Of a stretch of DNA of 64,000 nt, positions 13,694 to 37,749 are shown one piece after another (position 1 is the stretch's first letter; each line of letters begins with the position of its first letter). Made by a program: the position numbers and the translations under genes. This DNA is from Blautia parvula (GTDB lineage Bacteria; Bacillota; Clostridia; Lachnospirales; Lachnospiraceae), in contig NZ_CP084061.1 in the NCBI RefSeq assembly GCF_020215665.1, positions 4,555,001 to 4,619,000 of the forward strand. Direction: 5' to 3'. The notes beneath the pieces were generated by a model. The model was not told the DNA's origin. It ran no database searches and was given only the letters and a program-made list of their open reading frames with translations.

Positions 13694-13706
13694 AAGGGGT
13701 GATTAT

Positions 13707-14531: not shown

Positions 14532-14537
14532 TCAACT

Positions 14538-18511: not shown

Positions 18512-18572
18512 ACATAAAAAATGCAGGAATCAAGGGGGCTGTCCAAAACAAGCCCCCCTTGATTCCTGCATT
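18512..18572 (-). terminator. Terminator of the CheB-CheR hybrid kinase gene
   Basis: Long inverted repeat: arms 18520-18538 and 18554-18572 pair over 19 bases without mismatch, and the stem extends two more pairs past a single bulged base. On the minus strand it is followed by TTTTTATGTTT, so it terminates the hybrid kinase gene, whose stop codon lies in the stem. On the plus strand no T tract follows, so its effect on transcripts from GH31 is uncertain. Confidence 0.88.
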
Positions 18573-21500
18573 ACCTATCAGCCTTTTCCAGATAGGTACT
18601 AATTAAATGCACCAATTTTTCAATCTCAATAGGTTTGGTAGTATGTGCGTTCATACCGGCATTGAGCGAACGTTCCACATCATCCTGGAAGGCATTGGCG
18701 CTCATGGCGATTATGGGGATTTCAGCTGCCCCCGGCTTTTGGCACTTTCGGATTTCCCGGGCAGATGTCAGGCCGTCCATAACCGGCATCTTTATATCCA
18801 TAAGAATCAGATCATAATATCCCGCCGGTTTTTGTAAATAGCTTTCCAGGGCTTCTTTTCCGTTTTTGCAGCGTTCCACCTGAAAATTGTAGCTGCCAAG
18901 CAGTGTCTGGGCAATCTCTGCATTGAGGTCATTATCTTCTGCAAGAAGAATGCGTTTTTCTTTTAAAGAGCTGTCTATCCTGTCCGCTTTCGGTGTGACC
19001 CGATCAGCGGCTGTCTGACATTTGGACAATTTCATCGGTATTGTAAAGTAGAACTCTGAACCGAATTCGAGCCGGCTCTCCACCTGAAGGGTTCCGCCCA
19101 GAAGTTCTACCAGGTTCTTGCAGATTGCCAGTCCCAGTCCTGTACCCGGGGTTTTGCTCATGTTATTCCCATCACCCTGTTCAAAAGCGTCGAAAATGAC
19201 CTCCTGGTTCTCCGGGCTGATACCGCAGCCGGAGTCTTTGACTCGGAATGTGAATTCGGCCTGTTCCTCATTGACAGATACTTCCTCAGCCACCAGTACC
19301 ACCATACCCATTGATTGTGTGAATTTTATGGCATTGCTCAGCAGGTTCCCCAGAATCTCGCGCAGAAAGACAGGATCGGAGATCACATGCTGGTGCCGGA
19401 TACTGATGGCCCGTGTCAGGCCGACTCCGCCTTTGGTGGCAGCAAAATTATATTCAGCGATGATTTCCTCCAACAACTGACGCAGATCGTAATCCACTTC
19501 CCTGCATTCCATCTTGCCGCTCTCAATTTTTGACATATCCAGTACATCATTTACCAGCATCTGAAGGTGCTGCATGGAAAGTTTCATTTTATCCAGACAG
19601 TCCTCGATTTTATCCCTGTCATCCATATTTAATCTTGCGATATCGATCATACCCATAATGCCGTTCATAGGTGTACGGATCTCGTGGCTCATTTTGGAAA
19701 GGAATCCTGTTTTGGCAGCATTGGACTGGATTGCAACTGCCAGCTGCATTTGCGCTTCTTTCAGACGTTCGCGCTCCGTCACGTCCAGGAAAGTAAACTG
19801 AATGATACTGGAGACTTTGTCTTCTATGATCCAGTTGGCGGTACCTTCAATAGTGGTAAGGCCGCCGTCCTGTTTCGTCAGGTTAAAACGTACCTCACGC
19901 TGTTCACCCGGTTTACCAAGAGAATGCATAAAGGTACCGATTCCCGCCAGGCATTTCTGATGTTTGTCCTCCGGTGTCTCATTAAAAAGATGTCTTTCAA
20001 TGTCTCCCTCATTTTTTTCATCCAAAATATCAAGTGCGATTTTGTTTATGCTCAAGATTTTATTGCTTCGGATATCCACTTGGACGATTCCGCATACAGC
20101 TGTATTATAGAGTACCTTGTAAAGTCTGTCATACCGGTCGCGCTCTGCCTCCACCTGCTCCAGGGCACGTTTTCTTGCGGTGGTGTCCATAAATGTACTC
20201 TGAATCAGTTTTTTGCCGTCCGGGGTGCAGATCACCTTTGCCACTCCTGTGACCCAGCGGATACCGTCATCCTTTGTGCAGACACGGTGTTCAAAACTGG
20301 CACATTCACCTTCTTCCTTCAGAGAAAGCAGTGTGCGCCGTATGTATTCCGTATCCTCAGAAACGGTCACCTGAGGAAGTGTCTGCGCTGTCTGCCTGCG
20401 AAATTCCTCCATGGACTTATAACCCAGCATTTGGAGGGCTTCACTGTTCGCGTTATAACAACGCAGGTTGTTGTCCTCTATTTCATATTGAACGATCCCG
20501 CAGACTACGTTTTGATACAGCTTATTATAATAATCGCGTTCTTTTTTGAGCTGCTCCTCATAGTCTTTGATCAGTGAGATATCAGTGACGATACACTGCA
20601 GTTCGATATGCCGTTCCTGCCGGAATGCTACGGCCTGCAGGGAACACCAGCGGCCTGTTCCATTCTTCTGCCACAGGCGGCATTCTACCTTGAGAAGTCT
20701 GCCGACGGAGGCGGCATCCCGGATTTCTTCCTTTAGTTCAACCCAGTCGGAAGTATGCAGGAGGCGGTCGAAACGGTTATGCAGGTCCAGGCACATTTCC
20801 TCCGAGGTATACCCGATCAGGTCAAAGAAGCTGTCATTTGCATACTCGATCACCAGGATATCATTGAATCTTAGGCGGAGCACACCGCCCGGGACACTGT
20901 CCGTCAGATGTTTTAGATCAAATTTGGCGGCTTCCAGACGTTTGGTGATATCGAACATGGATATGAGGACACCCTTTGGGGTGTGGGTATGGTCAAAATA
21001 AGGGCGGATCCGTACAAGCCAGATGACATTATTTTGATCGGTGATCTCCTTTTCCACAATTTTTCCATGTCTTGATACATCAGTTACATCCTGTGTAAAG
21101 TCAGGGTAAGAATCAAGGAAGTTGATCTGTGTGACCGGACGTTCCAGGTCTGTGACCCGCAGATTTGTATGCTGGAGCATAAGGGGCGTTATTTTTCGGA
21201 TGTGCATATTTTCATCCACATACAGGGCACCCACATCTGCGTTCAGTAAAAGGTTATCAAAGTCCGCATTGGCAGTGGTCAGTTCCACAATCTTGTTCTG
21301 GTACTCAGCATTGATGGTGTAAAGCTCCTCGTTGACGGACTGCATTTCCTCATTGGTGCTTTGAAGTTCCTCATTGGATGCCAGAAGTTCTTCATTGGTG
21401 GCCTGCAGCTCTTCGTTGCGGGATTCCGATTCCTCTACGGCCAGTTTCAAATTCCAGTTGCTTTCATTCAGCGCATTTTCCAGGATCTGAATACGGCTGT

Positions 21501-23675: not shown

Positions 23676-24707
23676 TTACCTGGTATATCTGGCGCAGCTA
23701 TTCCTCTCAGCTATATAATGGGGCAGTTCCACTTTCAGATTCAGTTTATGTCCGCCCTGAATCCGGTCCAGTAAAACCTTCATGGCAATATTACCCAGCT
23801 CTCCGACGGGAACATGTACTGTAGTGAGCATGGGTATAGTGCGCTGGGCATGGGGAATATCGCCGATTCCTATGACTGAGATATCTTTTGGGATTCTCCT
23901 TCTGCATTCCCGGTAATACTGCATTGCACCTATAGCTGTCAGATCATCAGCGCATACAACTGCGGTGATGTCAGCCTCCCGTTCCAGAAGCAGCCTTGCT
24001 CCGTGATAGCCCCCCTCCATTGTCTCCTTGACATTGACCGTATTGGTTATGTGAAAGGGCAGTCCAAGTTCTCTCAGTGCCTGTTTGTATCCCTGAAAAC
24101 AGGAAGTGTCTTTTTGTGCCCCGAGATATCCGATTTTATTATGCTTCAGACGGTGAAGATATTGTACAGCAGTAACAGACGCATGATAACCATTACATAT
24201 AACCTGGTCGCATTTTAAATCCAGAGGATTGATGCCGATGTATACAAGGTTTCGGTAGGTGGTTTCAAGAAGTTCAAACTGCCGCTGCGTCAGGCATCGT
24301 TTTCCGAATAACACAGCACCGTCAGCATTGTTTTTTTGCGTTGTTGGGGGATTTGGGGGAAAGGAAAATTCTTCCAGAAAAAAAGAGCGGCGTACAGTAC
24401 ATTTTTGTCGAATGGCGATCTGTTCAATTGCCCGCTCTAATTCCTGGTAAAGTGGGCTGATATCTGTTCTGGAATGTTCACCGTAAATACAGTCAATCGT
24501 GTAAGACGGTTCGGATTCCTCCGGGACGGGGCTGCCGTTCTTTAATGTCCGGGCAGCCGCGTTTGGGATGTATCCGTTTTTTCGGACGATAGACCAGATT
24601 TTGTCCTGGGTATGTTTGCTGGCAGCATTGCTTCCTTTATTGTTTATGACTCTTGAGACTGTGGAGATGGAAACCCCGGCTTCCTTTGCAATATCCTTCA
24701 GTGTCAT
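23676..24707 (-). CDS. LacI-family transcriptional regulator 1
   Basis: A 343-residue LacI/GalR-type regulator: helix-turn-helix with hinge at residues 1-55 (MTLKDIAKEAGVSISTVSRV) and a periplasmic-binding-protein-like effector domain from about 60 (motifs GYLGAQKDTSCF, VCADDLTAIGAMQYY, ISVIGIGDIPHAQRTIPMLTTVHVP). It is clearly a paralogue of the next gene (345 versus 343 residues range, same recognition helix, same C-terminal NSCARY/DSCSKY ending), so they arose by duplication and may share operators. Context points to control of the divergent operon starting at 26203. The effector is unknown. Confidence 0.93.
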   Translation of the reverse strand: MTLKDIAKEAGVSISTVSRVINNKGSNAASKHTQDKIWSIVRKNGYIPNAAARTLKNGSPVPEESEPSYTIDCIYGEHSRTDISPLYQELERAIEQIAIRQKCTVRRSFFLEEFSFPPNPPTTQKNNADGAVLFGKRCLTQRQFELLETTYRNLVYIGINPLDLKCDQVICNGYHASVTAVQYLHRLKHNKIGYLGAQKDTSCFQGYKQALRELGLPFHITNTVNVKETMEGGYHGARLLLEREADITAVVCADDLTAIGAMQYYRECRRRIPKDISVIGIGDIPHAQRTIPMLTTVHVPVGELGNIAMKVLLDRIQGGHKLNLKVELPHYIAERNSCARYTR

Positions 24708-24812: not shown

Positions 24813-25856
24813 CTATCTGTTTGCAGAACGGTATTTGGAACAACTGTCACGTTTAGCTATGAAAAACGGTAGTTCTACTTTCATTGGAAGAGTATGTCTG
24901 CCGTTTATGCGGTCGATTAATATGCGTGCAGTCTGTCTGCCTAATTCTTCGATGGGGATATGTACAGTGGTAAGCATGGGTGTTACGTATTGAGCCAGAT
25001 CGATATCATCCACGCTTATGACAGAAATATCTTTGCTGACCTGTTTTTTATTCTCATGAAAGGCTTTGATGGCGCCAATGGCAGTCAGATCATTTGCACA
25101 GAAAACAGCTGTAAAATCAGAGCTGCTGTTTATTAACTTCTGAGCGCCTTTGTATCCACCGTCTGTGGATTGTATCACGTTGGCAGTATTATGGATCGTA
25201 AAATTTAAATTATGCATGGATAAAGCATCCTTATAGGCCAGAAAACGGCATTCATTCGCCTGTTCTCCAATATAGGCGATTTTTTTGTGCCCCAGTTCTA
25301 TTAAATGTTCCACTGCACTGATGCCTGCTTTGTATCCGTCGCATATAACCTGGTCACATTTTAGCGGTATGGCATTGAGTCCCACATAAATAATGTTTTT
25401 ATATACTTCTTTCAGGATCTTTAATTGTTCTTTTGTGAACATGTATCTTCCCAGTATAACAAGACCGCATATATTCCGTCCATCTGCCTGTATCATAGAA
25501 TCCAGAGACTTCAGGTCCATAGGTCGGTATGTATGTTTGACAATATAATTATAATCAAAAGCCTCTTGTTCCAGTGCACGCTCCAGTTCGGAGAAAAAAG
25601 GATCTGTATTTAGATTGGGGGTACGGGCCTGAAGGCAGTCTATATAGAACAGCGGATTTTCTTTGGAATCCGTAATAGATGTCCTGCGTTTCAGATTCTG
25701 TGCCAGGATGTTAGGGGTATAGCCATTTTTCCGTACAATGGACCAGATTTTATCACGTGTTTCTTTACTGGCGGCTCCTTGTTCCTTTCCGTTGATAACT
25801 CGGGAGACAGTTGAGATGGAGACACCTGCTTCTTTTGCGATATCTTTTAAAATCAT
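24813..25856 (-). CDS. LacI-family transcriptional regulator 2
   Basis: A 347-residue LacI/GalR-type regulator with the same recognition sequence as its neighbour (KDIAKEAGVSISTVSRVIN) and an effector domain with VICDGYKAGISAVEHL, FCANDLTAIGAIKAF and VTPMLTTVHIPIEELG segments. It is transcribed away from the transport/sugar operon at 26203, with 346 bases between; that gap carries two near-identical AAACGTTTG elements typical of LacI-family half-sites. It likely represses that operon and itself. The 105-base gap to regulator 1 shows no clear terminator, so the two may be co-transcribed. Confidence 0.93.
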   Translation of the reverse strand: MILKDIAKEAGVSISTVSRVINGKEQGAASKETRDKIWSIVRKNGYTPNILAQNLKRRTSITDSKENPLFYIDCLQARTPNLNTDPFFSELERALEQEAFDYNYIVKHTYRPMDLKSLDSMIQADGRNICGLVILGRYMFTKEQLKILKEVYKNIIYVGLNAIPLKCDQVICDGYKAGISAVEHLIELGHKKIAYIGEQANECRFLAYKDALSMHNLNFTIHNTANVIQSTDGGYKGAQKLINSSSDFTAVFCANDLTAIGAIKAFHENKKQVSKDISVISVDDIDLAQYVTPMLTTVHIPIEELGRQTARILIDRINGRHTLPMKVELPFFIAKRDSCSKYRSANR

Positions 25857-25999: not shown

Positions 26000-26014
26000 C
26001 AAACGTTTGCGTAA
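26000..26014. promoter_or_regulatory. LacI-type operator candidate, distal copy
   Basis: CAAACGTTTG (26000-26009) is a perfect palindrome, continuing as CGTAA. The core AAACGTTTGCGTAA recurs 102 bases downstream. It lies upstream of a minus-strand TATAAT (25965-25960) serving lacI regulator 2. The surrounding gap (25857-26202) is otherwise AT-rich. Confidence 0.6.
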
Positions 26015-26202: not shown

Positions 26203-27297
26203 ATGAAGAAAAAATTAGCAGTATTGTTAGTGACAGGAATTTTGGGTGTAACGTTGGCTGCATGCGGCAGCGGCAAAGAGCAGAAAAAGAATTTGGAGAC
26301 TGCGGGAAATGAGAGCAAAAGCGAAGATAAGATACCGCTTAAGATCAGTCATCACCCGTATCTGCATGCGCTGCCCAGTATCTATGCGGAGGATAATGGA
26401 CTCTATGATGAGTTTGATTATACCATTGATATGTATGCAGGAGGCCCTGTACAGAACGAGGCGATTGCATCCGGTGCATGGGAAGTCGGGACAACAGGTA
26501 TCGGCGGGGCAGTGCTTGGATGTCCTGCCTATAATATGAAGGTTCTTGGCTACTCCTGTGATGACACTCAGGCACTGGATATCTGGGTGAGAAAAGATAG
26601 TGAACTGGCTGGCAAAGATGCAGATGAGATGGGAGTGAGGGGAACTGCAGAGGACTGGAAAGGTAAGAAAATTCTCTGCCAGACCGGAACCACGTGCCAT
26701 ATGACCCTGATAGCAACGCTTGAACATTTGGGGCTTACCATGAATGATGTAGAGATAATTGATACAGCAGTAGCACAATCATATGCTGCATTTAAGGCCG
26801 GAGAAGCAGATGTCGTATGCTTGTGGTCGCCGTTTGGATACCAGGCAGAAGATGTTGAAGGATGGATAAAAGTGGCGGATGCAGGCCATCTGGGATTAAA
26901 GATGCCTACTCTGATTGTTGCTACGGAGGATGCAGTTAAAAACAGACCTGAGGTGGTGCAGGAATGGCTTAAATGTTATTTGCAGTCAGTGGAAGAATTG
27001 AGAAAAGATCCGGAAGGCAGTGCCCAACTTTTGTATGATTTTGAGGAAGAAGAGGGGATCTCCATGACGGAGTCGGCAGCTAAAAGAGATATCGAGACCC
27101 GTACTTTCCCATCTTTGGAGGAAAATAAAAAGGCTTTTGCGCAAGATAGTGATGGAAATATCGCAGCTCAGGAGGATTTACTGAAGTTTGCTGACTTTAT
27201 GATATCACAAGGTAAATTAACAGAGAAAGACAAACAGGCCATGATTGATAATAAGGCAGTTGACGGAACTTTTATGGCAAACGTTACACTGGATTAA
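26203..27297 (+). CDS. ABC transporter substrate-binding lipoprotein, NMT1/TauA type
   Basis: A 364-residue lipoprotein with the lipobox LAAC (Cys21). The fold pattern is that of NMT1/SsuA/TauA binding proteins, which carry small organic anions such as sulfonates, nitrate or thiamine precursors, not oligosaccharides: a PLKISHHPYLHALPSIYAE start, GGPVQNEAIASGAWEVG near residue 80 and FKAGEADVVCLWSPF near residue 195. The start at 26203 follows GGGAGGAAAAAC; an in-frame ATG at 26167 has no such site. It opens an importer with two permeases and two ATPases. The ligand is unknown, but the family suggests an anionic small molecule. Confidence 0.88.
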   Translation: MKKKLAVLLVTGILGVTLAACGSGKEQKKNLETAGNESKSEDKIPLKISHHPYLHALPSIYAEDNGLYDEFDYTIDMYAGGPVQNEAIASGAWEVGTTGIGGAVLGCPAYNMKVLGYSCDDTQALDIWVRKDSELAGKDADEMGVRGTAEDWKGKKILCQTGTTCHMTLIATLEHLGLTMNDVEIIDTAVAQSYAAFKAGEADVVCLWSPFGYQAEDVEGWIKVADAGHLGLKMPTLIVATEDAVKNRPEVVQEWLKCYLQSVEELRKDPEGSAQLLYDFEEEEGISMTESAAKRDIETRTFPSLEENKKAFAQDSDGNIAAQEDLLKFADFMISQGKLTEKDKQAMIDNKAVDGTFMANVTLD

Positions 27298-27318: not shown

Positions 27319-28146
27319 ATGAAAGAATCTGAAAAAATAGTGAGTTCTGTTCAGATTGAAGAGAAAAAGAGGGCAAAAGAGAAAATACAGCTGTTTCTGA
27401 TTTCAGCAGCCAGTGTCATTGTGTTTTTGGGAATTTGGGAGGCAGCAGTGCGGCTGTCCTGGGTAAATTCTCAGTTTGTATGTTCTCCATCGGAGGCTTT
27501 CATGGCATTTGTGGACAAACTCACGCAGCCCAATCCTGATGGAGCGGTCCTGGGTGTACATATCTGGGAGAGTTTAAAGCTGGCGCTGATAGGTTATGTG
27601 GCAGCAGCTGTTATAGGAGTGCCTTTAGGGCTGCTCCTTGGGTATTATCATACATTTGACAAGCTGGTAAACCCCATTTTTGAAATTATACGTCCCATTC
27701 CCCCTATTGCCTGGATTCCATTATCTGTTATCTGGCTGGGAATAGGAACAACGGCAAAATGTTTTATCATATTTCTGGCTGCTTTTGTTCCCTGTGTGAT
27801 CAATTCTTATACAGGTGTAAAGCTTACAAATTCTGTGCTTATCGACGTGGCGAAAACATGCGGGGCAAGCAGATGGAAAATATTTATCACAGTCTGCACG
27901 CCTTCAGCCATGCCTCTTGCATTCACTGGTATCAGGGTGGCTCTTGGGAATGCGTGGTCCACTTTGGTTGCAGCAGAAATGCTTTCCGCGACAGCCGGCT
28001 TAGGCTATATGATCCAGCAGGGCAGAGCTCTTGGAAGATCCGACATAATCATTGTCGGTATGCTTACAATTGGTGTTATAGGAGCAGTTCTCACAGCTGT
28101 CCTGAATAAATTGGAAAACAGGGTAATCAGATGGAGGGCCAAATAA
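27319..28146 (+). CDS. ABC transporter permease, SsuC/TauC type (1)
   Basis: A 275-residue permease with about six membrane helices. The cytoplasmic EAA-like coupling loop reads VAKTCGASRWKIFITVCTPSA near residue 178, and the conserved IIRPIPPIAWIPLSVIW segment near residue 120 is typical of the taurine/nitrate/sulfonate importer class. It has a weak GAGGTAAGG ribosome site. It overlaps the start of the next permease by one base (TAATG), so the two are translationally coupled and probably form a heterodimeric channel. Confidence 0.92.
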   Translation: MKESEKIVSSVQIEEKKRAKEKIQLFLISAASVIVFLGIWEAAVRLSWVNSQFVCSPSEAFMAFVDKLTQPNPDGAVLGVHIWESLKLALIGYVAAAVIGVPLGLLLGYYHTFDKLVNPIFEIIRPIPPIAWIPLSVIWLGIGTTAKCFIIFLAAFVPCVINSYTGVKLTNSVLIDVAKTCGASRWKIFITVCTPSAMPLAFTGIRVALGNAWSTLVAAEMLSATAGLGYMIQQGRALGRSDIIIVGMLTIGVIGAVLTAVLNKLENRVIRWRAK

Positions 28147-28919
28147 TGGAGAGACGTAAGTTAAAAGATATTTGCCTGACATGCATATCCCTTATTGCAT
28201 TGGTGGTTCTCTGGGTAATCGTTTCCAACAGTAAGCCTGATTTCTTTCCAACGCCCCAAGCAACCTGGGAAAGATTTTTAAAGATGGCAGAAACGCCAAT
28301 CAGCAAAACAACAATCATAGGACACATATTAATCAGTTTGAAGAGGGTTTTGACTGCTCTTGTTCTGGCGGTTGCCTCAGGAATAGGCATAGGCCTGATC
28401 ATGGGATGGAGCAAAAAGATGAACGCTGTTTTAGGCCCTATATTGACGGCGCTGCGTCCCATTCCTCCAATTGCCTGGATACCATTGGTGATTTTATGGT
28501 TTGGAGTCGGTGAATTTTCGAAGGTTCTGCTGGTATTTATAGGCGCGTTTTTTCCGGTAGTATTGAATACAGCGACCGGTGTAAGCATGGTGGACCCTAT
28601 GTATTTAAATGTAGGCCGTGTTTATAATGCCAATACCTTTCAAATGCTGTGCCATGTGGTTATGCCGGCAGCGCTTCCGGCTATCATGGCAGGAGTAAAG
28701 ATCGCGCTGAGCAGCGGTTGGATGGTGGTTGTGGCAGCAGAAATGATAGCCAGTAAATCAGGTCTCGGATTCCTGATCACAAGGGGGAATGAGAGCTATG
28801 ATGTTGCTCTTGTCCTGTGCGGAATGATACTGATTGGTCTGGTGGGAGCGATTTTAAGTGCGGTTTTTACATTGATGGAAAGGTGGTTATGTCCGTGGAT
28901 GGAAAAGAAAAACGGGTAA
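28146..28919 (+). CDS. ABC transporter permease, SsuC/TauC type (2)
   Basis: A 257-residue permease homologous to its upstream neighbour, with the same LRPIPPIAWIPLVILW segment near residue 105 and a coupling loop VGRVYNANTFQMLCHVVMPAALP near residue 155. Having two different permeases is unusual for TauC-type systems, which are normally homodimers, and goes with the two different ATPases that follow. The start is the ATG fused to the previous stop, with GGAGGG seven bases ahead; an in-frame ATG 15 bases upstream lacks a site. Confidence 0.9.
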   Translation: MERRKLKDICLTCISLIALVVLWVIVSNSKPDFFPTPQATWERFLKMAETPISKTTIIGHILISLKRVLTALVLAVASGIGIGLIMGWSKKMNAVLGPILTALRPIPPIAWIPLVILWFGVGEFSKVLLVFIGAFFPVVLNTATGVSMVDPMYLNVGRVYNANTFQMLCHVVMPAALPAIMAGVKIALSSGWMVVVAAEMIASKSGLGFLITRGNESYDVALVLCGMILIGLVGAILSAVFTLMERWLCPWMEKKNG

Positions 28920-29653
28920 AACTGACATTAAAAAATATATCAAAGTCTTTTTATGCCAGAAAGGAAATCTTCGAGGCAGTGAATAATATTTCCATTGATG
29001 TCTATGAAAATGAATTTCTTGTCATACTGGGTCCCGGTCAATGTGGGAAAAGCGTTCTGCTGAACATAATAAGCGGCCTGGAGAAGCCTACAGCTGGGGA
29101 AGTGAAGTTCCCCAGCAATGATGAAAAAAAGGTTGGTTTTGTTTTCCAGAAGACAGCAGTATTTCCCTGGAAGACAGTCATGCAGAATGTGGAATTTTCC
29201 CAGGAGCTGAAAGGTGTAAATAAAGCGAGACGAAGAGAGCAGGCACAGTATTTGATCGAGCTGGTTGGGTTAAAGGGATTTGAAAATTCCTATCCGCGTC
29301 AGTTGTCAGGAGGGATGAAACAGAGGGTGGGAATTGCCAGGGCTTACTGCAGCGATCCCGATATTTTATTGATGGATGAGCCATTTGGGGCGTTGGATGC
29401 GCAGACACGGTATCAGATGGAGGAGGAAGTGCTCAGAATCTGGGAAAAGGAGAAGCGCACGGTGATTTTTGTCACAAATAATATTGAGGAGGCTGTATAT
29501 CTGGGAGACAGAATCATCCTGCTCAGTGAGTGCCCTGCCTCAGTGAAAGAAATTTATACCCTGGAGGCTCTTCAGCGGCCAAGAGACTATGTAGATACAG
29601 AGTTTCTCAGAATGAGGGAAACAATAGAGAAAAATATGGATTTGGCATTATAA
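28889..29653 (+). CDS. ABC transporter ATPase A, degenerate Walker A and H-loop
   Basis: A 254-residue nucleotide-binding subunit. Walker A is GPGQCGKS (48-55), where the fourth position of GxxGxGK[ST] is Gln instead of Gly. The signature LSGGM (139-143) and Walker B ILLMDEP with Glu164 are canonical. The H-loop position is Asn197 (VTNN) instead of His. So its own ATP-binding half-site is weakened but it donates an intact signature motif to a partner. The start overlaps the permease by 31 bases and has an AAAGGTGG ribosome site. Its partner is the next gene, which is degenerate in the opposite way. Confidence 0.9.
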   Translation: MSVDGKEKRVKLTLKNISKSFYARKEIFEAVNNISIDVYENEFLVILGPGQCGKSVLLNIISGLEKPTAGEVKFPSNDEKKVGFVFQKTAVFPWKTVMQNVEFSQELKGVNKARRREQAQYLIELVGLKGFENSYPRQLSGGMKQRVGIARAYCSDPDILLMDEPFGALDAQTRYQMEEEVLRIWEKEKRTVIFVTNNIEEAVYLGDRIILLSECPASVKEIYTLEALQRPRDYVDTEFLRMRETIEKNMDLAL

Positions 29654-29672: not shown

Positions 29673-30416
29673 ATGGGAGAAGAGGTAAAGGTAAGGGTAG
29701 AAAACCTGACAAAGTGTTTTGGGGATTTAAGAGTTCTTGATAAGGTTTCCTTCCAGATAAAAAAAGGAGAGTTTGTATGTATCGTGGGTCCTACAGGCTG
29801 CGGAAAGACAACATTCTTAAGACTTTTAACGAAGCTTACAGAGCCCACGTCCGGAGAAATTTACATAGACGGTGAGCCGGCTGATCCTCAGAAACATAAT
29901 ATATCCTTTGTGTTTCAGGAACCTTCAGCTTTTCCGTGGCTGACCGCAGAGGAAAATATTGAATATGGGCTGAAGGTCAAAAAGAGGCCGGCCCGTGAAA
30001 TAAAAGCGCAGTCTGACAAAATCATTGGCTTACTTGGATTGGAAAAGTTTCGCAAAGCATATCCTCACGAGATGTCAGTGAGTATGGAGCAGAGGGTTGT
30101 GATTGGCAGGGCATTTGCTATGAACCCTGATTTGCTGCTGATGGATGAGCCGTATGGGCAGATGGATATTAAAATGAGATATTTCCTGGAAGATGAGGTG
30201 ATCAAACTCTGGAAGGCAACAGGCAGTACTGTCCTGTTTATCACCCACAACTTGGAAGAGGCAGTATATCTGGCGGAAAAAATACTGATCCTGTCGAATA
30301 AACCCGCAAGGGTAAAAGATGAAGTGGTAGTAGAGCTTCCGAGACCAAGGGATATTGCAGATGAGAAATTTGTTGAGATCAGGAAAAAGATAACAGAAGA
30401 GATTAAGTGGTGGTAA
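29673..30416 (+). CDS. ABC transporter ATPase B, degenerate signature motif
   Basis: A 247-residue nucleotide-binding subunit. Walker A GPTGCGKT (39-46), Walker B LLLMDEP with Glu159 and the H-loop His192 (ITHN) are all intact. The signature, normally LSGGQ/LSGGM, reads MSVSMEQ (134-140), and the D-loop is GQMD instead of GALD. It therefore supplies a working catalytic half-site but a poor signature. Combined with ATPase A this predicts a heterodimer with one catalytic and one degenerate ATP site. It starts 19 bases after its partner with a GGCAGGA site. Confidence 0.9.
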   Translation: MGEEVKVRVENLTKCFGDLRVLDKVSFQIKKGEFVCIVGPTGCGKTTFLRLLTKLTEPTSGEIYIDGEPADPQKHNISFVFQEPSAFPWLTAEENIEYGLKVKKRPAREIKAQSDKIIGLLGLEKFRKAYPHEMSVSMEQRVVIGRAFAMNPDLLLMDEPYGQMDIKMRYFLEDEVIKLWKATGSTVLFITHNLEEAVYLAEKILILSNKPARVKDEVVVELPRPRDIADEKFVEIRKKITEEIKWW

Positions 30417-30456: not shown

Positions 30457-31233
30457 ATGAAAAATCTGAGAGATAAAAAAGTGCTGGTGACCGGAGGCGC
30501 ACAGGGAATTGGATATGCGGTTGCTGAGTGTTTTGCAAAAGAAGGTGCGGATGTTTTTATTGGTGATATCAAAATCCAAAATGCAGAGGAAGCAGCAAAA
30601 GCGCTGCATGAGAAGTACGGTATTAACACCGGAGCTTATATGCTGGATGTGAGTGACAGAAAAAGTATTGCTTCCTGTTTTGAAAGATTCGGAAAGGAAC
30701 AGAAGGTTCTGGATATTTTGGTTAATAACGCAGGGGTGCAGATTCGTATGCCTTCCCTCGAATTTGAGGAAGAGAAGTGGGACCTGCTTATGAACATCAA
30801 CTTAAAAGGAGCTTTTTTCTGTGCCCAGGAAGCGGCGAATATCATGAAGGACAAAGGCGGTGCCATTGTAAATATATCATCAGGAACTTCTACTGAGACC
30901 CTGCCCGGAAGAGCACCGTACTGTATCAGCAAGGCGGGCATTAACGGTTTGACTGCTGTTCTGGCTTCTGAGTGGGCCAAATATCATATTCGGGTGAATG
31001 CGGTTGCCCCCGGGTGGATTTTAACTCAGCTGTTATTAGACGGGATGAATATGGGAATCGTCAGTGAGAAACAGATACTGGCAGCGGTTCCCATGAAGAG
31101 GCTGGCAGATGTCAGTGAGATTGCAGAACCTGTGGTGTTCCTCGCTTCAGATGAAGCCAGTTATGTGACGGGTCAGACCTTGTTTGTAGACGGAGGGCAG
31201 TCTGCTCTTGGCCTGCCGGATATTGAATTATGA
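30457..31233 (+). CDS. Short-chain dehydrogenase/reductase
   Basis: A 258-residue classical SDR. The NAD(P)-binding motif TGGAQGIG (12-19), NNAG (90-93) and the catalytic Ser142, Tyr155 and Lys159 (YCISK) are all present. Aspartate-rich DIKI after beta-strand 2 favours NAD(H). SDRs of this size oxidise or reduce a secondary hydroxyl of sugars, polyols or hydroxy acids. It is the first enzyme after the importer genes, so it may act early on the imported compound, but the substrate is unknown. Confidence 0.92.
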   Translation: MKNLRDKKVLVTGGAQGIGYAVAECFAKEGADVFIGDIKIQNAEEAAKALHEKYGINTGAYMLDVSDRKSIASCFERFGKEQKVLDILVNNAGVQIRMPSLEFEEEKWDLLMNINLKGAFFCAQEAANIMKDKGGAIVNISSGTSTETLPGRAPYCISKAGINGLTAVLASEWAKYHIRVNAVAPGWILTQLLLDGMNMGIVSEKQILAAVPMKRLADVSEIAEPVVFLASDEASYVTGQTLFVDGGQSALGLPDIEL

Positions 31234-31245
31234 GGAGGTGTGAGA

Positions 31246-32079
31246 ATGAGGCAGCAGAATAGTGTAGAAGAAATCATCAGACATGCACAGCAGATACGGA
31301 GGAATACGATTATCAGTCTGCACAGTGCAGGTTCCGGGCATCCTGGCGGGGCTTTGTCTATGGTTGAGATCATAGCAGTGCTGTATTTTTATGAGATGAA
31401 TATCAGTCCGGACAAGCCGGAAGAAATGAATCGTGATCGTTTTGTTTTGTCAAAGGGACACGCGGCACCGGCTTACTATGCCGCATTGGCAGAACGGGGA
31501 TATTTTGAAAAGAGTGCTTTGACCACACTTAGAAAAATGGGCAGTATGCTGCAGGGACATCCGGATATGAAAAAGGTACCGGGAGTTGATATGTCCACAG
31601 GTTCCCTGGGCCAGGGTATATCTGCAGCATGCGGTATGGCTCATTATGCAAAAAAGACAGGAAAAGATTACAGGGTTTACTGCATAATAGGGGACGGAGA
31701 AATGCAGGAAGGACAGGTATGGGAGGCGTTTATGAGTGCCGGTCATTTTAAACTGGATAATCTGGTAGTGTTTTTGGATAACAATAATCTGCAGATTGAC
31801 GGGAGGGTAGATGAGGTTATGTCCATATATCCTGTAAAAGAAAAGCTGCAGGCATTCGGATGGCATGTAGAGGAGACAGACGGTCACAATGTCAAAGGGT
31901 TGATAGAAACTCTGGACCGTGTCAGACAGGTGAGAGACCAGCCTGCTTTTATAATAGGAAAAACAACAAAAGGTAAGGGGGTATCTTTTATGGAGAATCA
32001 GGCAGGGTGGCATGGAGCAGCTATTAATGACGAACAGTTTGAACAGGCAATGAAAGAATTGGGGGAGGCGTGCGTATGA
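31246..32079 (+). CDS. Transketolase, N-terminal (ThDP-PP) subunit
   Basis: A 277-residue subunit of a split transketolase. It carries the diphosphate-binding domain: GHPGG (31-35), SKGHAAPAYYA near residue 69, and the ThDP/Mg motif GDGEMQEG (149-156) followed by the conserved NNN near 179. Transketolases transfer a two-carbon ketol unit between sugars. Start at 31246 follows AGGAGG; a GTG six bases upstream is less well spaced. It overlaps the C-terminal subunit gene by four bases, so both are made together. Confidence 0.95.
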   Translation: MRQQNSVEEIIRHAQQIRRNTIISLHSAGSGHPGGALSMVEIIAVLYFYEMNISPDKPEEMNRDRFVLSKGHAAPAYYAALAERGYFEKSALTTLRKMGSMLQGHPDMKKVPGVDMSTGSLGQGISAACGMAHYAKKTGKDYRVYCIIGDGEMQEGQVWEAFMSAGHFKLDNLVVFLDNNNLQIDGRVDEVMSIYPVKEKLQAFGWHVEETDGHNVKGLIETLDRVRQVRDQPAFIIGKTTKGKGVSFMENQAGWHGAAINDEQFEQAMKELGEACV

Positions 32080-33020
32080 GTTCAACAAGAGAAGCATATG
32101 GTGCTGCGCTGACTGAATTAGCGGAAAAATATGAATTCTTTGTTTTTGATGCAGATTTATCCAAGGCAACCCAGACAATACATTTTGCGAAAAAATATCC
32201 TGACCGGTTTACAGATATGGGTATTGCTGAATGTAATATGATGGGATATGCAGCGGGGTACGCGGCCAGCGGAGCTGTGGTATTTGCAAGCACTTTTGCT
32301 GCCTTTGCAGCGGGCAGGGCATATGATCAGATCAGAAACAGTATAGCCTATCCAAATCTGAATGTTAAGATTGCAGCTACACATGGAGGAGTGTTGATCG
32401 GTGCGGATGGGGGTTCCCATCAGTGTGTAGAAGACCTGGCTCTTATGAGAGCAGTACCTAATATGACTATACTCTATCCGGCAGATACCATAGAGACAAA
32501 AAAATGTGTGGAGGAGGCAATCAACCATAAGGGACCTGTTTATCTCCGATTTGGCAGGCTGGATTCTCCGGAAATATACACTGAAAAAAAAGATTGCAGG
32601 GCAAGCATCGGGAAAGGAACGCTGCTGCGTGAGGGACAGGATTTAACTATCGTAGCTGCAGGAGATTTGGTAAGCAGAGCACTGGAAGCTGCAAAGGAAA
32701 TGGAGAAAAACGGTATCTGTGCGGATGTCATTGATATGGCATCTGTCAAACCAGTTGATGCGGAGCTGCTTTTGGATTCCGTTAGGAAAACGGGATGCGC
32801 AGTGACTGCAGAGGATCACAATATACTGGGAGGATTAGGCGGAGCAGTCAGTGAAGTGCTTTCCAAAAACTATCCCGTACCTGTAGAGATGGTCGGAATA
32901 CAGGATATGTTCGGATGTTCAGGTACACCCAAAGAGCTGGCAGAACATTATGGACTTACTATTGAAAATATTGTTGCGGCTGCACACCGTGTGATCAGGA
33001 GAAAAGAAGGGAAATCATGA
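32076..33020 (+). CDS. Transketolase, C-terminal (pyrimidine-binding) subunit
   Basis: A 314-residue partner subunit with the pyrimidine-binding domain (GIAECNMMGYAAG near residue 50, containing the catalytic Glu; ADGGSHQCVEDLALMR near residue 110) and the C-terminal transketolase domain (from about 190; AEDHNILGGLGGAVSE near residue 247). Together with the upstream gene it forms a full enzyme, an arrangement common in Clostridia and Archaea and also seen in dedicated catabolic operons. Its ATG overlaps the previous stop by ATGA. Confidence 0.95.
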   Translation: MSSTREAYGAALTELAEKYEFFVFDADLSKATQTIHFAKKYPDRFTDMGIAECNMMGYAAGYAASGAVVFASTFAAFAAGRAYDQIRNSIAYPNLNVKIAATHGGVLIGADGGSHQCVEDLALMRAVPNMTILYPADTIETKKCVEEAINHKGPVYLRFGRLDSPEIYTEKKDCRASIGKGTLLREGQDLTIVAAGDLVSRALEAAKEMEKNGICADVIDMASVKPVDAELLLDSVRKTGCAVTAEDHNILGGLGGAVSEVLSKNYPVPVEMVGIQDMFGCSGTPKELAEHYGLTIENIVAAAHRVIRRKEGKS

Positions 33021-34039
33021 GAAAAATAGTATTTGAAAGTCCTATGAAAGCCGTGGTCCGACAGGCTGATAAGCCTGTATGCGGCAGGGGTCAGGTTTTA
33101 CTGAAAATGAGACGGATTGGTGTATGCGGAACGGATATTCAGGTATTTGCCGGAAAAAATCGGTATATGGAATTTCCTGTTGTGCCGTTTCATGAGGGAA
33201 TTGCCATAGTGGAAGAGACAGGGGAAGACGTGAACGACCTAGAACCGGGCAGTCTGGTCACAATCCGCCCCATTCTGAGCTGCAACATGTGTTATTCCTG
33301 CAGAAAAGGAAAGAAAAATGCCTGCATGAATTTTAATTCGTTAGGTGTTCAGTCTGATGGTCTTGGTGCAGATTATTTTGTGATAAGCAGGGAGTATGTT
33401 TACCCTCTGGAACAGGATGCGGATCTGGATAAAGTTATTTTTATCGAACCTTTTGCTGTGGGAGTACACGCGGCTTATCAGGGCGATGTGGAAGGAAAGG
33501 AAGTTTTAGTCGTAGGGGGCGGTACAATTGGAAATTTTACGGCCCAGGCATGTATGCTGGCCGGGGCAAAAAAGACTGCAATCTGCGATATCAGCCGTGA
33601 AAAGATCAGAATGGCAGAGAAGTCAGGGATTGATTTTGCCATTGATACATCGAATCTTACTTTGGTACAGGCAGCCCGGCAATGTTTTGAGGAATTTCCG
33701 GATGTCATCATTGACTGTGCAGCAGTACCGGCAGTTTTTACACAGATTCTGGAGCTGGCGGGAAAGACAACCACTGTAGTTATCGTAGGGAATTACAGTG
33801 TTCCGGTGCAGGCAGACATTGCAAAAATACAGAGAAACGAACTTACAGTGAAAGGGTGTATCACGTATCGGGAGGAGGACTTTATAAGAGCCAGGGACTT
33901 GATAGAGGAAGGCAGGGTTTATTTGGACGGGTTTATATCAAAAAGGTATCGGTTTTCCCAGGTTCAGGAAATGATGGAACAGGCATTGAAAAATAAAGGT
34001 ATCAATATGAAGACGATCATGGATTTTGAGGGGGAATGA
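33017..34039 (+). CDS. Zinc-dependent medium-chain dehydrogenase (sorbitol/threonine dehydrogenase-like)
   Basis: A 340-residue MDR-family enzyme. Catalytic zinc ligands are Cys37 (GVCGTD), His59 and Glu60 (FHEG); structural zinc cysteines are 89, 92, 95 and 103. A Rossmann motif GGGTIGNF lies near residue 160. The usual GHE is FHE here. Enzymes of this class oxidise a secondary hydroxyl of polyols, threonine or sugar acids with NAD(P). It overlaps the transketolase gene by four bases and lies in the middle of the pathway operon. Substrate unknown. Confidence 0.9.
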   Translation: MRKIVFESPMKAVVRQADKPVCGRGQVLLKMRRIGVCGTDIQVFAGKNRYMEFPVVPFHEGIAIVEETGEDVNDLEPGSLVTIRPILSCNMCYSCRKGKKNACMNFNSLGVQSDGLGADYFVISREYVYPLEQDADLDKVIFIEPFAVGVHAAYQGDVEGKEVLVVGGGTIGNFTAQACMLAGAKKTAICDISREKIRMAEKSGIDFAIDTSNLTLVQAARQCFEEFPDVIIDCAAVPAVFTQILELAGKTTTVVIVGNYSVPVQADIAKIQRNELTVKGCITYREEDFIRARDLIEEGRVYLDGFISKRYRFSQVQEMMEQALKNKGINMKTIMDFEGE

Positions 34040-34041
34040 TA

Positions 34042-34701
34042 ATGTACCATATAGCGCCTACAATGCTGTGCGCGGACTTGTTCAAAATGAGGGAAAGTAT
34101 GGAGCTACTGGATAAGCTGGGAATTGACTGGTTTCATATAGACGTTATGGATGGGAATTTTGTACCTAATTTTGCATTTGGCACAGATTTTCTAAGGCAG
34201 ATGACAACAGTGGGTAAAAGCCCGTTTTATTTACATCTGATGGCTGCCAGGCCTGAGGAATATGTGGATTTATTTGCAGAACTTGGAGTGGAGTATTATT
34301 GCTTTCATTATGAATGTACCAAAAATCCCTTCCGGCTGTGCCAGCAGATAAAAAAGCAGGGGATGAAGGCAGCGGCAGCGCTAAATCCGGCAACACCAGT
34401 CCAATTTCTAAGGGATTTGATTCCTTATCTGGATGCGGTCACACTTATGTCAGTGGAGCCGGGGTTTTCCGGGCAGCGTTTTATGGAATTTACATATCAG
34501 AGAATTAAAGAGTTAAGAGCTTTGGCAGACGGATTTAAGTTACTGATCGAGGTGGATGGCGGTATAGACATTGAAATAGCAAAGAAGTGTATAGATGCCG
34601 GATGTGATGTTGTAGTAGGAGGATATTTTACACTGTTTCAGAAGGGAAAGTCAATAGAGAAAAATTACGAGACGTTTCGGCAGGCAGTTAGGAATCGATA
34701 A
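34042..34701 (+). CDS. Ribulose-phosphate 3-epimerase-like TIM-barrel epimerase
   Basis: A 219-residue member of the Rpe family. The metal and catalytic residues are kept: HIDVMDG near residue 34, HLMAA near 67 and EVDGG near 172, plus the barrel marker NPATP. It departs from housekeeping Rpe in the mobile loop (VEPGFSGQ instead of NPGFGGQ), in the N-terminal PTMLCAD, and most clearly in the C-terminal phosphate-holding loop, where the usual AGSAIF reads GGYFTLF. In these features it is nearer to AlsE-like hexulose-phosphate epimerases. The start at 34042 is preferred over 34036 because of spacing to AGGGGG. Confidence 0.85.
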   Translation: MYHIAPTMLCADLFKMRESMELLDKLGIDWFHIDVMDGNFVPNFAFGTDFLRQMTTVGKSPFYLHLMAARPEEYVDLFAELGVEYYCFHYECTKNPFRLCQQIKKQGMKAAAALNPATPVQFLRDLIPYLDAVTLMSVEPGFSGQRFMEFTYQRIKELRALADGFKLLIEVDGGIDIEIAKKCIDAGCDVVVGGYFTLFQKGKSIEKNYETFRQAVRNR

Positions 34702-34717
34702 TCAGGGAGATAAGGGT

Positions 34718-35443
34718 ATGGAGTTAGAACAGTTGAAACAAATGGTGGTGGAGGCAAATAAAGAATTGCCCCGCCGGGAATTAGTCAAGTATTCCTGGGG
34801 AAATGTAAGTGCGGTAGACAGGGAAAGAGGGATTATTGTTATAAAGCCTGTGGGGGTACCTTATGAGGAGCTGACCACTGAGAATGTCAGTGTTGTCACT
34901 CTGGATGGAAAATTGCTGGGGAAATCGTGGGAACCATCAGTAGATCTGGATATTCACAGAGCAATATATGAGAATTTTGAGGGTGTCAGTGCTATTGTCC
35001 ATACACACTCCACATATGCGACAGTTTTGGCTCAGCTTCGGCGTTCATTGGTCTGTTTTGGGACCACGCATGCAGATTATTTTGCCGGTGATATTCCCTG
35101 TGTCAGGGAATTAAGTGATGATGAGGTTGTCAATAAGTATGAGTGGAATACTGGAATGACAATCGTTGAGTTTTTCAAGGAGAATAAAATTTCCCCTGAG
35201 GACATTCCGGCTGCGTTGACACCGGGACATGGACCGTTTACGTGGGGCAGTGATGTGTGGGATGCTGTACACAAATCGGTTGTATTGGAGGAGATAAGCA
35301 AAATGGCAGTCCACATGCTGTGTATAGATAAAAATGCACAGCCTCTGAAGCGTATTGTCGCTGACAGGCATTATGACAGAAAACATGGCGCTAACGCATC
35401 TTTTACAAGAGATGATTATGGACATGGAATGGTACAGAGATAA
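34718..35443 (+). CDS. L-ribulose-5-phosphate 4-epimerase-like protein (class II aldolase fold)
   Basis: A 241-residue relative of AraD/UlaF/SgbE. Zinc ligands and acid residues align at nearly the same numbers as E. coli AraD: Asp76, His95, His97, Asp120, Glu142 and His171. However two positions that hold the substrate phosphate in AraD are valine here (KPVG at residue 45 for KPSG, and SVD at residue 75 for SSD), and the catalytic C-terminal Tyr229 appears to be Phe229 (HGANASF). The C-terminus is ten residues longer than AraD. The fold and family are firm; AraD activity itself is doubtful. It lies 16 bases after the Rpe-like gene. Confidence 0.88.
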   Translation: MELEQLKQMVVEANKELPRRELVKYSWGNVSAVDRERGIIVIKPVGVPYEELTTENVSVVTLDGKLLGKSWEPSVDLDIHRAIYENFEGVSAIVHTHSTYATVLAQLRRSLVCFGTTHADYFAGDIPCVRELSDDEVVNKYEWNTGMTIVEFFKENKISPEDIPAALTPGHGPFTWGSDVWDAVHKSVVLEEISKMAVHMLCIDKNAQPLKRIVADRHYDRKHGANASFTRDDYGHGMVQR

Positions 35444-35465
35444 AATGATTGGGGGACTTCACAGA

Positions 35466-36305
35466 ATGAAGTATATTTTTGCAAATTTGAAACGGTTTGA
35501 TATACCAAAAGAAATGGATGGAATTAATACATTGGCACCAGTCAGCTTGTGGGGAAGTTATCTGACAGGCCAGATACGGGAAACGATGAACCAATATTCC
35601 GCTCAGGCAGAATTTGCTGTTTTCTATCCCGAGGCTTATCTGCTTCAGGCAGCAGACGCAAAGGCAGCAGAGGATGGTTGGAAAGTCGGGGTACAGGGGA
35701 TTTATAGGGAAGATACGGAGAAAGGCGGAAACTTTGGGGCATTTACTACGAACAGGACAGCCAAGAGTGTAAAATCTATGGGATGTGAATATGTTCTGAT
35801 AGGTCACTGTGAGGAACGAATGGATAAAGCCGGAGTTCTGGCCCATGCGGGTATTACTGATTCAGAGGCTGTGAACAGAATCTTAAATGAAGAGGTTGTC
35901 TGTGCAGTTAAAGCAGGTCTTTCTGTCCTGTATTGTGTCGGGGAAACAGAAGCAGAACAGAACAGATGGCAGGATGTTATAGGGGAACAGCTGGATGTGG
36001 GGCTTAATGATGTGGACTTATCAGGTATTTCCGTTGCATATGAACCACTTTGGGCAATTGGACCGGGAAAACCAGTGCCGGATTCAGATTATATAACTAA
36101 AATCGCCTCATTTATTAAATCTCGGACAGATGGCTGTCCTGTGATATACGGAGGTGGTCTGAAAGAGGAAAATGCCCGTATGCTGGCAGAAATACCATGT
36201 GTGGATGGAGGCCTTATCGGACTTACAAAATTCAGCGGGGATATCGGATTTTATCCGGACGGATTTGCATCTATCGTTGAAAAATATCTGGGGGAGGGTA
36301 AATAA
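35466..36305 (+). CDS. Triosephosphate isomerase-family protein, divergent
   Basis: A 279-residue TIM-family isomerase, longer than the usual 250. The catalytic Lys (NLKRFD near residue 9), His (GHCEER for GHSERR) and Glu (AYEPLWAIGPG) are recognisable. The phosphate-gripping parts are altered: loop 7 reads GGGLKEEN where GGS is normal, and loop 8 reads IGLTKFSG where VGGASL is normal. Relatives such as Brucella EryH work on four-carbon sugar phosphates, so an aldose-ketose isomerase for another substrate is likely. The start at 35466 was chosen at the motif-bearing N-terminus with GGGGGA upstream; the frame is open into araD-like. Confidence 0.85.
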   Translation: MKYIFANLKRFDIPKEMDGINTLAPVSLWGSYLTGQIRETMNQYSAQAEFAVFYPEAYLLQAADAKAAEDGWKVGVQGIYREDTEKGGNFGAFTTNRTAKSVKSMGCEYVLIGHCEERMDKAGVLAHAGITDSEAVNRILNEEVVCAVKAGLSVLYCVGETEAEQNRWQDVIGEQLDVGLNDVDLSGISVAYEPLWAIGPGKPVPDSDYITKIASFIKSRTDGCPVIYGGGLKEENARMLAEIPCVDGGLIGLTKFSGDIGFYPDGFASIVEKYLGEGK

Positions 36306-36306
36306 G

Positions 36307-37749
36307 ATGAAATTGGATTTTGAATATGGTACGGGCACCATGGCGGCAGAACTGCCGGATGAACGGACAGATGTTTTTATTCCGGGTATAACAGTATCTG
36401 ATCCCCCATGTATCCCAAGAAATCAGCTGATAAACAAAACAAGAGAATCCATATTACATCCTGTGGGAATGCCGCCTCTGTCAGAATTGGCCGGTAAGGG
36501 CAGCAAAGTCACAATAACAATTCCGGATATCGTAAAAGGGGGATGTCAGCCAACCTCACACCGAAAACTGGCGGTTAAACTGATTCTTGAAGAGTTATAT
36601 AAGGCTGGGGTGGAGAAAAAGGATATCCTTTTGATATTTTCCAATGGACTGCATCCGCGGACCAGCAAAAGGGAAATGCAGCAGATCCTTGGTGATGAAT
36701 TATTTCATGAGTTTTTTCATTCTCATCAGATTATCAGTCATGACAGCGAAGATTATGAACATTTGGTGGATCTTGGCTGCACAGAGAGGGGAGACCGAGT
36801 CCTGATGAATAAGTATGTCTATGATTCTGATATAGCTGTTTTGATCGGACATACTCAGGGAAATCCTTATGGCGGTTACTCCGGTGGATATAAACACTGC
36901 GCAACGGGTATTACACACTGGAGGAGTATTGCGACACATCATATACCGGATGTGATGCACGGAAACGATTTTACTCCGGTCAATAACCATTCACTGATGA
37001 GAAAAAAATTTGATGAAATAGGCATGTACATGGAAAAATGTATGGGTAAGAAGTTTTTCTGTTGTGATGCTGTTCTGGATTCTATTTCCCGTCAGATAGA
37101 GATCAACAGTGGTTACGCAAAAGAAATGCAGCTTATTTCATGGCAGACAGCTGACAAGAGGACATATGTACCCTGGGCAGAAAAGAAATATGATGTAATG
37201 GTATTCGGCATGCCTCAGGATTTCCATTACGGGGATGGTATGGGGACGAATCCAATCCAGATGATGCAGGCTTTATCCGCTCAGGTCATCCGTCATAAGA
37301 GGGTGATGAGTGACAATTGTGTGATTATATGCTCTTCTATATGTAACGGTTATTTCCACGATGAGCGCTGGCCATACCTTCGGGAACTTTATGAAATGTT
37401 CCAGCATGATCATATGAATATACTGCCGGATATGGATAAGTACGGAGAGTATTTTGCTACAAATGAAGAATACATCAGAAAATACCGTTATGCCGGTGCG
37501 TTCCATCCTTATCATGGTTTTTCCATGATGAGCTGCGGCCATATCGCGGAGATGAATACCTCCGCCATATACATAGTCGGCGCACAGGAACCCGGAATAG
37601 CCAGAGGTATGGGATTAAAGACCAGGGCCACGTTCGAGGAGGCACTGGAGGATGCTATGAAGAAATATGTGGGAGGAAAGCCGAATATCCTGGCGCTGCC
37701 GCTGGCTTTTAAGAGGGCATCCGTACATCTGTGTATGAAAGAGGCATAA
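36307..37749 (+). CDS. LarA-family (DUF2088) nickel-pincer 2-hydroxyacid epimerase-like protein
   Basis: A 480-residue protein of the lactate racemase family. Equivalent residues to LarA's active site are visible: Asp74 (IPDIVK), His116 (SNGLHPR) and Lys196 (GGYSGGYKH), the lysine that would hold the nickel-pincer nucleotide. It is about 50 residues longer than LarA. Homologues racemise or epimerise various 2-hydroxy acids, including malate, 2-hydroxyglutarate and gluconate. No larB, larC or larE is in the window, so the cofactor would have to be made elsewhere. The gene begins two bases after the TIM-like stop with a GGGGGAGG site and is last in the operon. Confidence 0.85.
   Translation: MKLDFEYGTGTMAAELPDERTDVFIPGITVSDPPCIPRNQLINKTRESILHPVGMPPLSELAGKGSKVTITIPDIVKGGCQPTSHRKLAVKLILEELYKAGVEKKDILLIFSNGLHPRTSKREMQQILGDELFHEFFHSHQIISHDSEDYEHLVDLGCTERGDRVLMNKYVYDSDIAVLIGHTQGNPYGGYSGGYKHCATGITHWRSIATHHIPDVMHGNDFTPVNNHSLMRKKFDEIGMYMEKCMGKKFFCCDAVLDSISRQIEINSGYAKEMQLISWQTADKRTYVPWAEKKYDVMVFGMPQDFHYGDGMGTNPIQMMQALSAQVIRHKRVMSDNCVIICSSICNGYFHDERWPYLRELYEMFQHDHMNILPDMDKYGEYFATNEEYIRKYRYAGAFHPYHGFSMMSCGHIAEMNTSAIYIVGAQEPGIARGMGLKTRATFEEALEDAMKKYVGGKPNILALPLAFKRASVHLCMKEA

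Follow-up and report, generated by a model that had tools for sequence, protein, structure and literature searches.

An operon of Blautia parvula with altered phosphate pockets is a candidate pentose version of a proposed sulfo-sugar cluster family in Firmicutes

A 64,000-nucleotide stretch of the Blautia parvula genome (assembly GCF_020215665.1, contig NZ_CP084061.1, positions 4,555,001 to 4,619,000; referred to here as the window) contains an operon of eight close-set genes that encode seven enzymes directly 3' of a sulfonate-type ATP-binding cassette (ABC) importer. As judged by sequence, the phosphate sites of its Rpe-like epimerase, its AraD-like protein and its triosephosphate isomerase (TIM)-like protein are changed, and the changes are specific to the cluster copies and common to their relatives. 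The TIM-like/LarA-like gene pair that ends the operon, a LacI regulator and its operator tie the window to clusters built around different sugar-cleaving enzymes, and in some of these clusters a close relative of sulfofructose transaldolase is used. The operon may be one version of an unrecognised branch of sulfo-sugar breakdown that is widespread among Firmicutes, with the window as its pentose/transketolase version, an interpretation whose chances we put at about even.

Neighboring enzyme genes overlap or are separated by 1–22 bases, the importer ends 40 bases 5' of them, and two LacI-type regulator genes on the minus strand are divergent from the importer and enzyme genes. The starts of the TIM-like and LarA-like genes were chosen inside longer open reading frames. 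The features, in window coordinates, are:

23676–24707, minus strand: second LacI-family regulator (Pfam LacI, Peripla_BP_3)
24813–25856, minus strand: LacI-family regulator, orthologue (>40% identity) of LacI genes at 32 of 80 related loci
26001–26014, plus strand: operator AAACGTTTGCGTAA, one of two exact genome matches to AAACGTTTGYGTAA
26103–26116, plus strand: operator AAACGTTTGTGTAA, the other exact genome match
26203–27297, plus strand: NMT1/SsuA-type substrate-binding lipoprotein (TIGR01728, 95.7 bits; cut-off 163.5)
27319–28146, plus strand: ABC permease 1 (Pfam BPD_transp_1)
28131–28919, plus strand: ABC permease 2 (Pfam BPD_transp_1)
28889–29653, plus strand: ABC ATPase 1 (Pfam ABC_tran)
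29673–30416, plus strand: ABC ATPase 2 (Pfam ABC_tran)
30457–31233, plus strand: short-chain dehydrogenase/reductase (SDR; Pfam adh_short_C2)
31240–32079, plus strand: transketolase N-terminal half (Pfam Transketolase_N)
32070–33020, plus strand: transketolase C-terminal half, site motif R-A-F-H-R as in the genome's own paralogue L140
33017–34039, plus strand: zinc-dependent medium-chain dehydrogenase (Pfam ADH_N, ADH_zinc_N)
34036–34701, plus strand: Rpe-like epimerase with the altered phosphate loop GGYFTLF
34718–35443, plus strand: AraD-like protein, S44V, S75V and Y229F relative to E. coli AraD
35466–36305, plus strand: TIM-like protein, catalytic residues intact, loops 7 and 8 altered
36307–37749, plus strand: LarA-like protein of the single-histidine (His to Asn) subfamily

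Open reading frames and Pfam matches confirm the gene positions and the seven enzymes behind an NMT1/TauA-type importer that had been proposed from the DNA letters by an earlier, sequence-only reading. Its statement that sugar kinase and phosphotransferase system genes are lacking is upheld for the window, where none was found among the 48 proteins scanned by Pfam; the closest FGGY match lies ~21 kb before the window start.

The window enzymes were compared with E. coli references and with the other copies in the same genome. The AraD-like protein was tested for the Ser44 (45 in its own numbering) and Ser75 contacts and for Tyr229, presumably a catalytic residue, and has Val, Val and Phe instead; the Tyr229 replacement had been overlooked earlier. 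Asp76, His95, His97 and His171 are retained. The Rpe-like protein has GGYFTLF in place of the AGSAIF phosphate loop. The TIM-like protein reads YGGG rather than YGGS in loop 7 and GLT rather than GGA in loop 8; it retains the His, the Glu and loop 6, and an N-x-K motif near its start, invariant in 15 sequences, matches the catalytic Lys by eye. Its AlphaFold model (pLDDT 88) has TIM 4y96 as the best Foldseek match. The ordinary AraD (L132), Rpe (L130) and TIM (L136) copies of the genome have the usual residues at the altered positions, which we take to be phosphate-holding sites. The loop changes occur in 80–81 of 81 TIM-like sequences: loop 7 Gly and a Leu at the second Gly of loop 8 are present in all 81, which also keep the His, the Glu and loop 6 and have gained an Arg or Lys in loop 8. 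At locus L123 the AraD-like protein carries Arg, Val and Phe at positions 44, 75 and 229, and in the phosphate loop of the Rpe-like proteins from L083 and L123 there is a Phe together with a one-residue insertion. The altered AraD, TIM and Rpe phosphate residues reported by the sequence-only reading are borne out by the E. coli references and the intact paralogues.

The window LarA-like protein matches LarA_Bw and LarA_Sp (PDB 9q3j and 9q2u) over its full length, with E values of 9e-257 and 3.5e-242. Asn replaces its second catalytic His, and H115, H211, H306, Y307, H401 and K76 are present; this set is also found in 73–75 of 75 relatives. The protein is a member of the single-histidine LarA_Bw/LarA_Sp subfamily and not the generic sugar-acid epimerase that had been supposed. 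The available text of PMC12611868 describes structures of single-histidine LarA enzymes, proposes a general role in carbohydrate metabolism without a substrate, and notes a TIM gene nearby. New here is that this LarA subfamily is tied to TIM-like partners whose pockets are altered, to transporters of the SsuA/TauE type and to an operator common to the clusters.

A search of 200 genomes of the family located the TIM-like protein in 14 genomes besides this one. An alignment of 15 TIM-like sequences yielded 537 stretches in a species-genome collection, and the best 80 by match to the window, which include close relatives, were examined. Fourteen further loci, partly overlapping, were kept out of this pool, and ~13 additional loci, including two that repeat L055 and L066, were viewed separately. 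Genes at the 80 loci were counted by tblastn; some contigs are short, so the counts are lower bounds. A LarA gene is present at 76 loci, at 75 of them on the same strand as the TIM-like gene and no more than 400 bases downstream of it, and at the four loci without it the contig ends at or shortly after the TIM-like gene. The pool contains genes resembling phosphofructokinase (PFK, 57 loci), NagA (52), class II aldolase (48), NagB (43) and phosphoglucose isomerase (PGI, 21), and transaldolase genes (13); NagA/NagB genes occur at 60 loci. Transport genes are represented by SsuB-like ATPases (42), SsuC-like permeases (38), SsuA-like binding proteins (36) and TauE (22), and DUF4838 and glycoside hydrolase family 3 (GH3) genes occur at 12 loci each. 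The PFK-like genes mean that the label "kinase-free", given to the pathway earlier, fails for the cluster family. The window's transketolase and AraD genes are found at none of the 80 loci; in other families of the class, L123 and L127 have a transketolase beside the pair, and L123 also has AraD-, Rpe- and RpiB-like genes. Viral contigs yielded no relative of the TIM-like protein. The TIM-like/LarA-like pair is a marker of a widespread cluster family in gut Firmicutes of which no description was found in the literature, where searches did not return the pair in sulfoglycolysis.

Three further observations concern the pair. Genes that by eye resemble LarB, LarC and LarE, which make the nickel-pincer cofactor, are located no further than 10 kb from the pair at L018, L023 and L125. 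Genome G760 has two separate pair clusters, L126 and L127, one with PFK-, aldolase- and PGI-like genes and one with transketolase. A protein at L061:15579–17519 joins a chemoreceptor-like signalling part (by eye) to an SsuA-like binding domain, recognised by its similarity to the cluster binding proteins, and its relatives lie near the pair at 9 of the 80 loci.

The operator sequence AAACGTTTGYGTAA has exactly two matches in the 6.25-Mb genome, both 5' of the window importer. The looser pattern AAACGTTTG[CTG]GTA gives 37 sites at 33 of the 80 loci, with a site no more than 400 bases upstream of a cluster gene at 30 loci, and the reversed-pattern control gives one site. The LacI orthologue is present at 32 loci. 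Related LacI proteins use similar operators, and an operator match alone is no proof. The shared operator suggests a single inducer common to the hexose, amino-sugar and pentose versions, plausibly the C3 product.

Residues were also examined in other cluster enzymes at positions that we take to bind the 6-phosphate. In the PFK-like proteins R162 is replaced by His in 56 of 59 sequences (Lys in 3) and H249 by Leu, Ile or Val in 60/60. The NagB-like proteins have Val for T41 and His for K208 in 43/43, the NagA-like proteins His for R227 in 50/51, and the PGI-like proteins Ala for S207 and Asn for T209 (E. coli numbering; SKTFTT motif) in 20/20. In 10 of 13 transaldolases R134 is Trp and S166 is Ala. 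Most catalytic residues are retained in these enzymes; D141 of the NagB-like proteins is Asn in 41 of 43, so not all of them are. Five of six additional enzyme families are altered, which together with the three window enzymes makes eight enzyme types. Class II aldolase was excluded as an altered family: R331 is kept in 47/47, S61 is Ala in 45/47, and the alignment to FbaA is poor near the glycine-rich loop. The closest solved relatives of these aldolase-like proteins are ordinary aldolases.

Among the groups that could stand in for the phosphate, sulfo has the most support, on the combined sequence evidence of sulfofructose-transaldolase relatives, SsuA-type binding proteins and TauE enrichment. 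The transaldolases at 10 of the 13 transaldolase-bearing loci are 62–65% identical to BmSF-TAL and keep its W, A and R, the positions forming this motif being a reading of the alignment. In the portions of the literature available, BmSF-TAL (PDB 8bc3/8bc4) was solved with sulfofructose and the motif is reported to orient the sulfonate. The gene order transaldolase, TIM-like, LarA-like holds at all ten loci. The PFK-like and aldolase-like cluster genes belong to the same Pfam families as SqiK (PF00365, PFK) and SqiA (PF01116, class II aldolase) of the sulfo-Embden-Meyerhof-Parnas 2 (sulfo-EMP2) pathway, as the accessible part of PMC9594981 assigns them. The window binding protein scores 95.7 bits with the aliphatic sulfonate model TIGR01728 and the L030 copy 155.5 bits, both below the cut-off of 163.5, and the nearest solved structures to the window protein are binding proteins named for taurine, sulfonate or nitrate. 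TauE-type genes occur at 22 of the 80 loci against 0.77 expected, a ~29-fold enrichment in which the expectation is set by 62 genes over 114.9 Mb of sequence from 23 of these genomes and the loci are taken as independent. Different TauE-type genes are present at L117, L121 and L123. Within 92 sequences no YihU-like reductase and one GabD-like gene, far from the pair, were found; other reductase families were not searched. The earlier proposal that the substrates carry a group other than phosphate thus stands with altered pockets in the relatives added to it and sulfo as the likeliest group; the substrate itself is one we infer.

Several observations weigh against a sulfo-sugar. The residue counts are drawn from related genomes and hence are dependent, a number of the substituted residues (Val, Leu, Trp) are hydrophobic, and some anion-binding residues are kept in PFK (R243 and R252), PGI (K208) and aldolase (R331). 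Neither of the two TauE genes of the genome, at 1.55 and 5.26 Mb, is near the window, and the transketolase motif is ordinary both in the window and at L123. YihU is a single family among the sulfolactaldehyde reductases. Some clusters have importers that resemble general sugar importers by eye. NagA and NagB suggest an amino sugar, and we know of no source of its sulfonate form. At L083 the pair, with the same regulator and operator, stands beside a nucleoside hydrolase and an importer of nucleoside type, and to our knowledge there is no common 5'-sulfo nucleoside. The L083 segment (3245–12509) also contains Rpe-like and RpiB-like genes, suggesting a ribose-based substrate that does not fit simple sulfo-sugar ideas.

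N-Acetylglucosamine 6-sulfate, considered for the NagA/NagB, DUF4838 and GH2 genes, was rejected as the sole substrate and does not fit the PGI-, ManA- and nucleoside-type loci. The model of a DUF4838 protein is closest to GH20 hexosaminidases (10% identity, TM 0.56), with GH138, GH67, GH84 and GH115 also listed, and L059 has a LacZ-type GH2. At L120 (3253–12222) the pair is accompanied by an SDR, an SMP-30 lactonase, two DapA-family aldolases and an arylsulfotransferase-like gene, an arrangement that recalls the sulfo-Entner-Doudoroff pathway, and L120 is a possible oxidative variant.

The split transketolase had been offered earlier as a hint of a sulfo substrate, but in the window it provides no evidence for one. 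Its site motif, RAFHR, has no special change, and the protein lacks RAFDR, the head-group motif reported for sulfofructose transketolase in the source text available; RAFDR is present at L127, another transketolase/TIM/LarA cluster. Because the window motif is that of the ordinary-looking split paralogue L140 and not RAFDR, the window transketolase is uninformative on a sulfo substrate. S385 to Ala was dropped as a sulfo-transketolase signature for the window, the other split transketolase of the genome having the same Ala.

The main rival is a neutral far end, in which free (OH) or deoxy (CH3) sugars would yield glyceraldehyde or lactaldehyde as the C3 product, isomerised by the TIM-like protein and racemised or isomerised by LarA. 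We regard it as possible but doubtful. The non-polar changes (Val/Val in the AraD-like, Leu/Ile in the PFK-like and Trp/Ala in the transaldolase proteins), the nucleoside hydrolase and importer of L083, the sugar-importer-like genes at other loci, the lactonase and DapA-type aldolases of L120 and the window operon's want of a kinase agree with it. However, free sugars would need no second complete route beside the ordinary kinases, a neutral group leaves the SsuA-type binding proteins, the TauE enrichment and the sulfofructose-transaldolase identity unexplained, and Arg or Lys in loop 8 of every TIM-like protein and Arg in the L123 AraD pocket do not suit it.

Improbable in our judgment is a carboxylate at the far end, whereby uronate-like sugars would give tartronate semialdehyde, converted by the TIM-like enzyme to hydroxypyruvate, with LarA as a racemase. 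The same L120 lactonase and aldolases would suit this route, and known LarA enzymes use 2-hydroxy acids in the available text of PMC11770544; the LarA subfamily here has a different active-site residue set, the sulfofructose-transaldolase identity and TauE enrichment speak for another group, and the GH20-like and NagA/NagB genes would require N-acetylglucosaminuronate. An ordinary pentose-phosphate type operon with drifted phosphate loops, or with phosphate held by other residues, is very improbable: it agrees with the unchanged transketolase site and the kept isomerase catalytic residues, but the changes hardly vary across the 81 TIM-like sequences and reappear in enzymes of unrelated families within the clusters, and intact copies exist elsewhere in the same genome.

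In the sulfo-sugar reading, the SsuA-type importer would take up a C5 (or C6) sugar or sugar alcohol with a sulfo group at its far end. The SDR and the zinc dehydrogenase would bring the substrate to the ketose level, and the AraD-like and Rpe-like proteins would make adjustments at carbons 4 and 3. The split transketolase would transfer C1–C2 to an ordinary sugar phosphate, leaving a C3 sulfo-aldehyde, either sulfolactaldehyde or glyceraldehyde 3-sulfate; the choice between a sulfonate and a sulfate ester is again one we infer. The phosphate site of the transketolase would be unchanged because the proposed acceptor is an ordinary sugar phosphate. The TIM-like enzyme would interconvert the aldose and ketose forms of the C3 sulfo-aldehyde by way of an enediolate. 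A final hydride transfer, itself a putative reaction, would then fall to the nickel-pincer LarA-like enzyme. Known sulfoglycolysis, in the part of PMC12890257 available, ends in sulfolactaldehyde reduction or oxidation. Because of these endings and the lack of a YihU-like gene in the 92 sequences, the pair probably takes over at the sulfolactaldehyde stage.

A tentative and rather unlikely extension is that the pair removes the sulfo group without oxygen or radicals. The TIM-like enediolate would expel sulfite or sulfate to give methylglyoxal, the single-histidine LarA would turn methylglyoxal hydrate into lactate by internal hydride transfer via the nickel cofactor, and TauE would export the sulfur anion. 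If this were true, all of the sulfo-sugar carbon would be usable by fermenting bacteria.

Known systems resemble the clusters in part. Ten relatives, and not the window, share with the sulfo-transaldolase pathway the transaldolase placed right before the pair; the window has no transaldolase, the relatives have NagA/NagB-like genes nearby instead of a YihS-type isomerase, and their pair occupies the place expected for sulfolactaldehyde reductase or dehydrogenase. The split transketolase behind an importer, and the RAFDR of L127, recall the sulfo-transketolase (SqwGH) route. The window operon differs from it in its motif and in lacking the RpiB-like isomerase present in L083 and L123, and TIM-like and LarA-like genes are absent from that pathway as given in the available parts of PMC11659671 and PMC9594981. 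The related loci pair PFK-like and aldolase-like genes as in sulfo-EMP2, but their isomerase is PGI-, NagB- or ManA-like and their likeness to SqiK and SqiA is at the level of the Pfam family. The window LarA-like protein has the same nine active-site residues checked as LarA_Bw and LarA_Sp. Triosephosphate isomerase shares the fold, the His, the Glu and loop 6 with the TIM-like protein and differs in the replaced phosphate contacts of loops 7 and 8, and the genome has its separate ordinary TIM.

Elsewhere in the window, positions 11533–18442 encode a CUT1-type importer, a major facilitator superfamily protein and a GH31 glycosidase; no YihQ-like match was found in the window. The minus strand at 18571–23448 encodes a protein of 1625 residues in which CheB, CheR, PAS, histidine kinase and receiver domains are combined. 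Promoter and terminator scans gave results no better than chance.

If the sulfo-sugar reading is correct, a large number of sulfo-sugar clusters in gut Firmicutes would escape current sulfoglycolysis searches because the 92 sequences contain no relative of YihQ, YihS, YihT, YihU or YihV. The orphan single-histidine LarA subfamily, for which the accessible text of PMC12611868 gives no substrate, would gain a substrate class open to testing. The clusters may use sulfated host glycans or sulfonated sugars yet to be described, and their activity would bear on the origin of intestinal sulfite, sulfate and sulfide.

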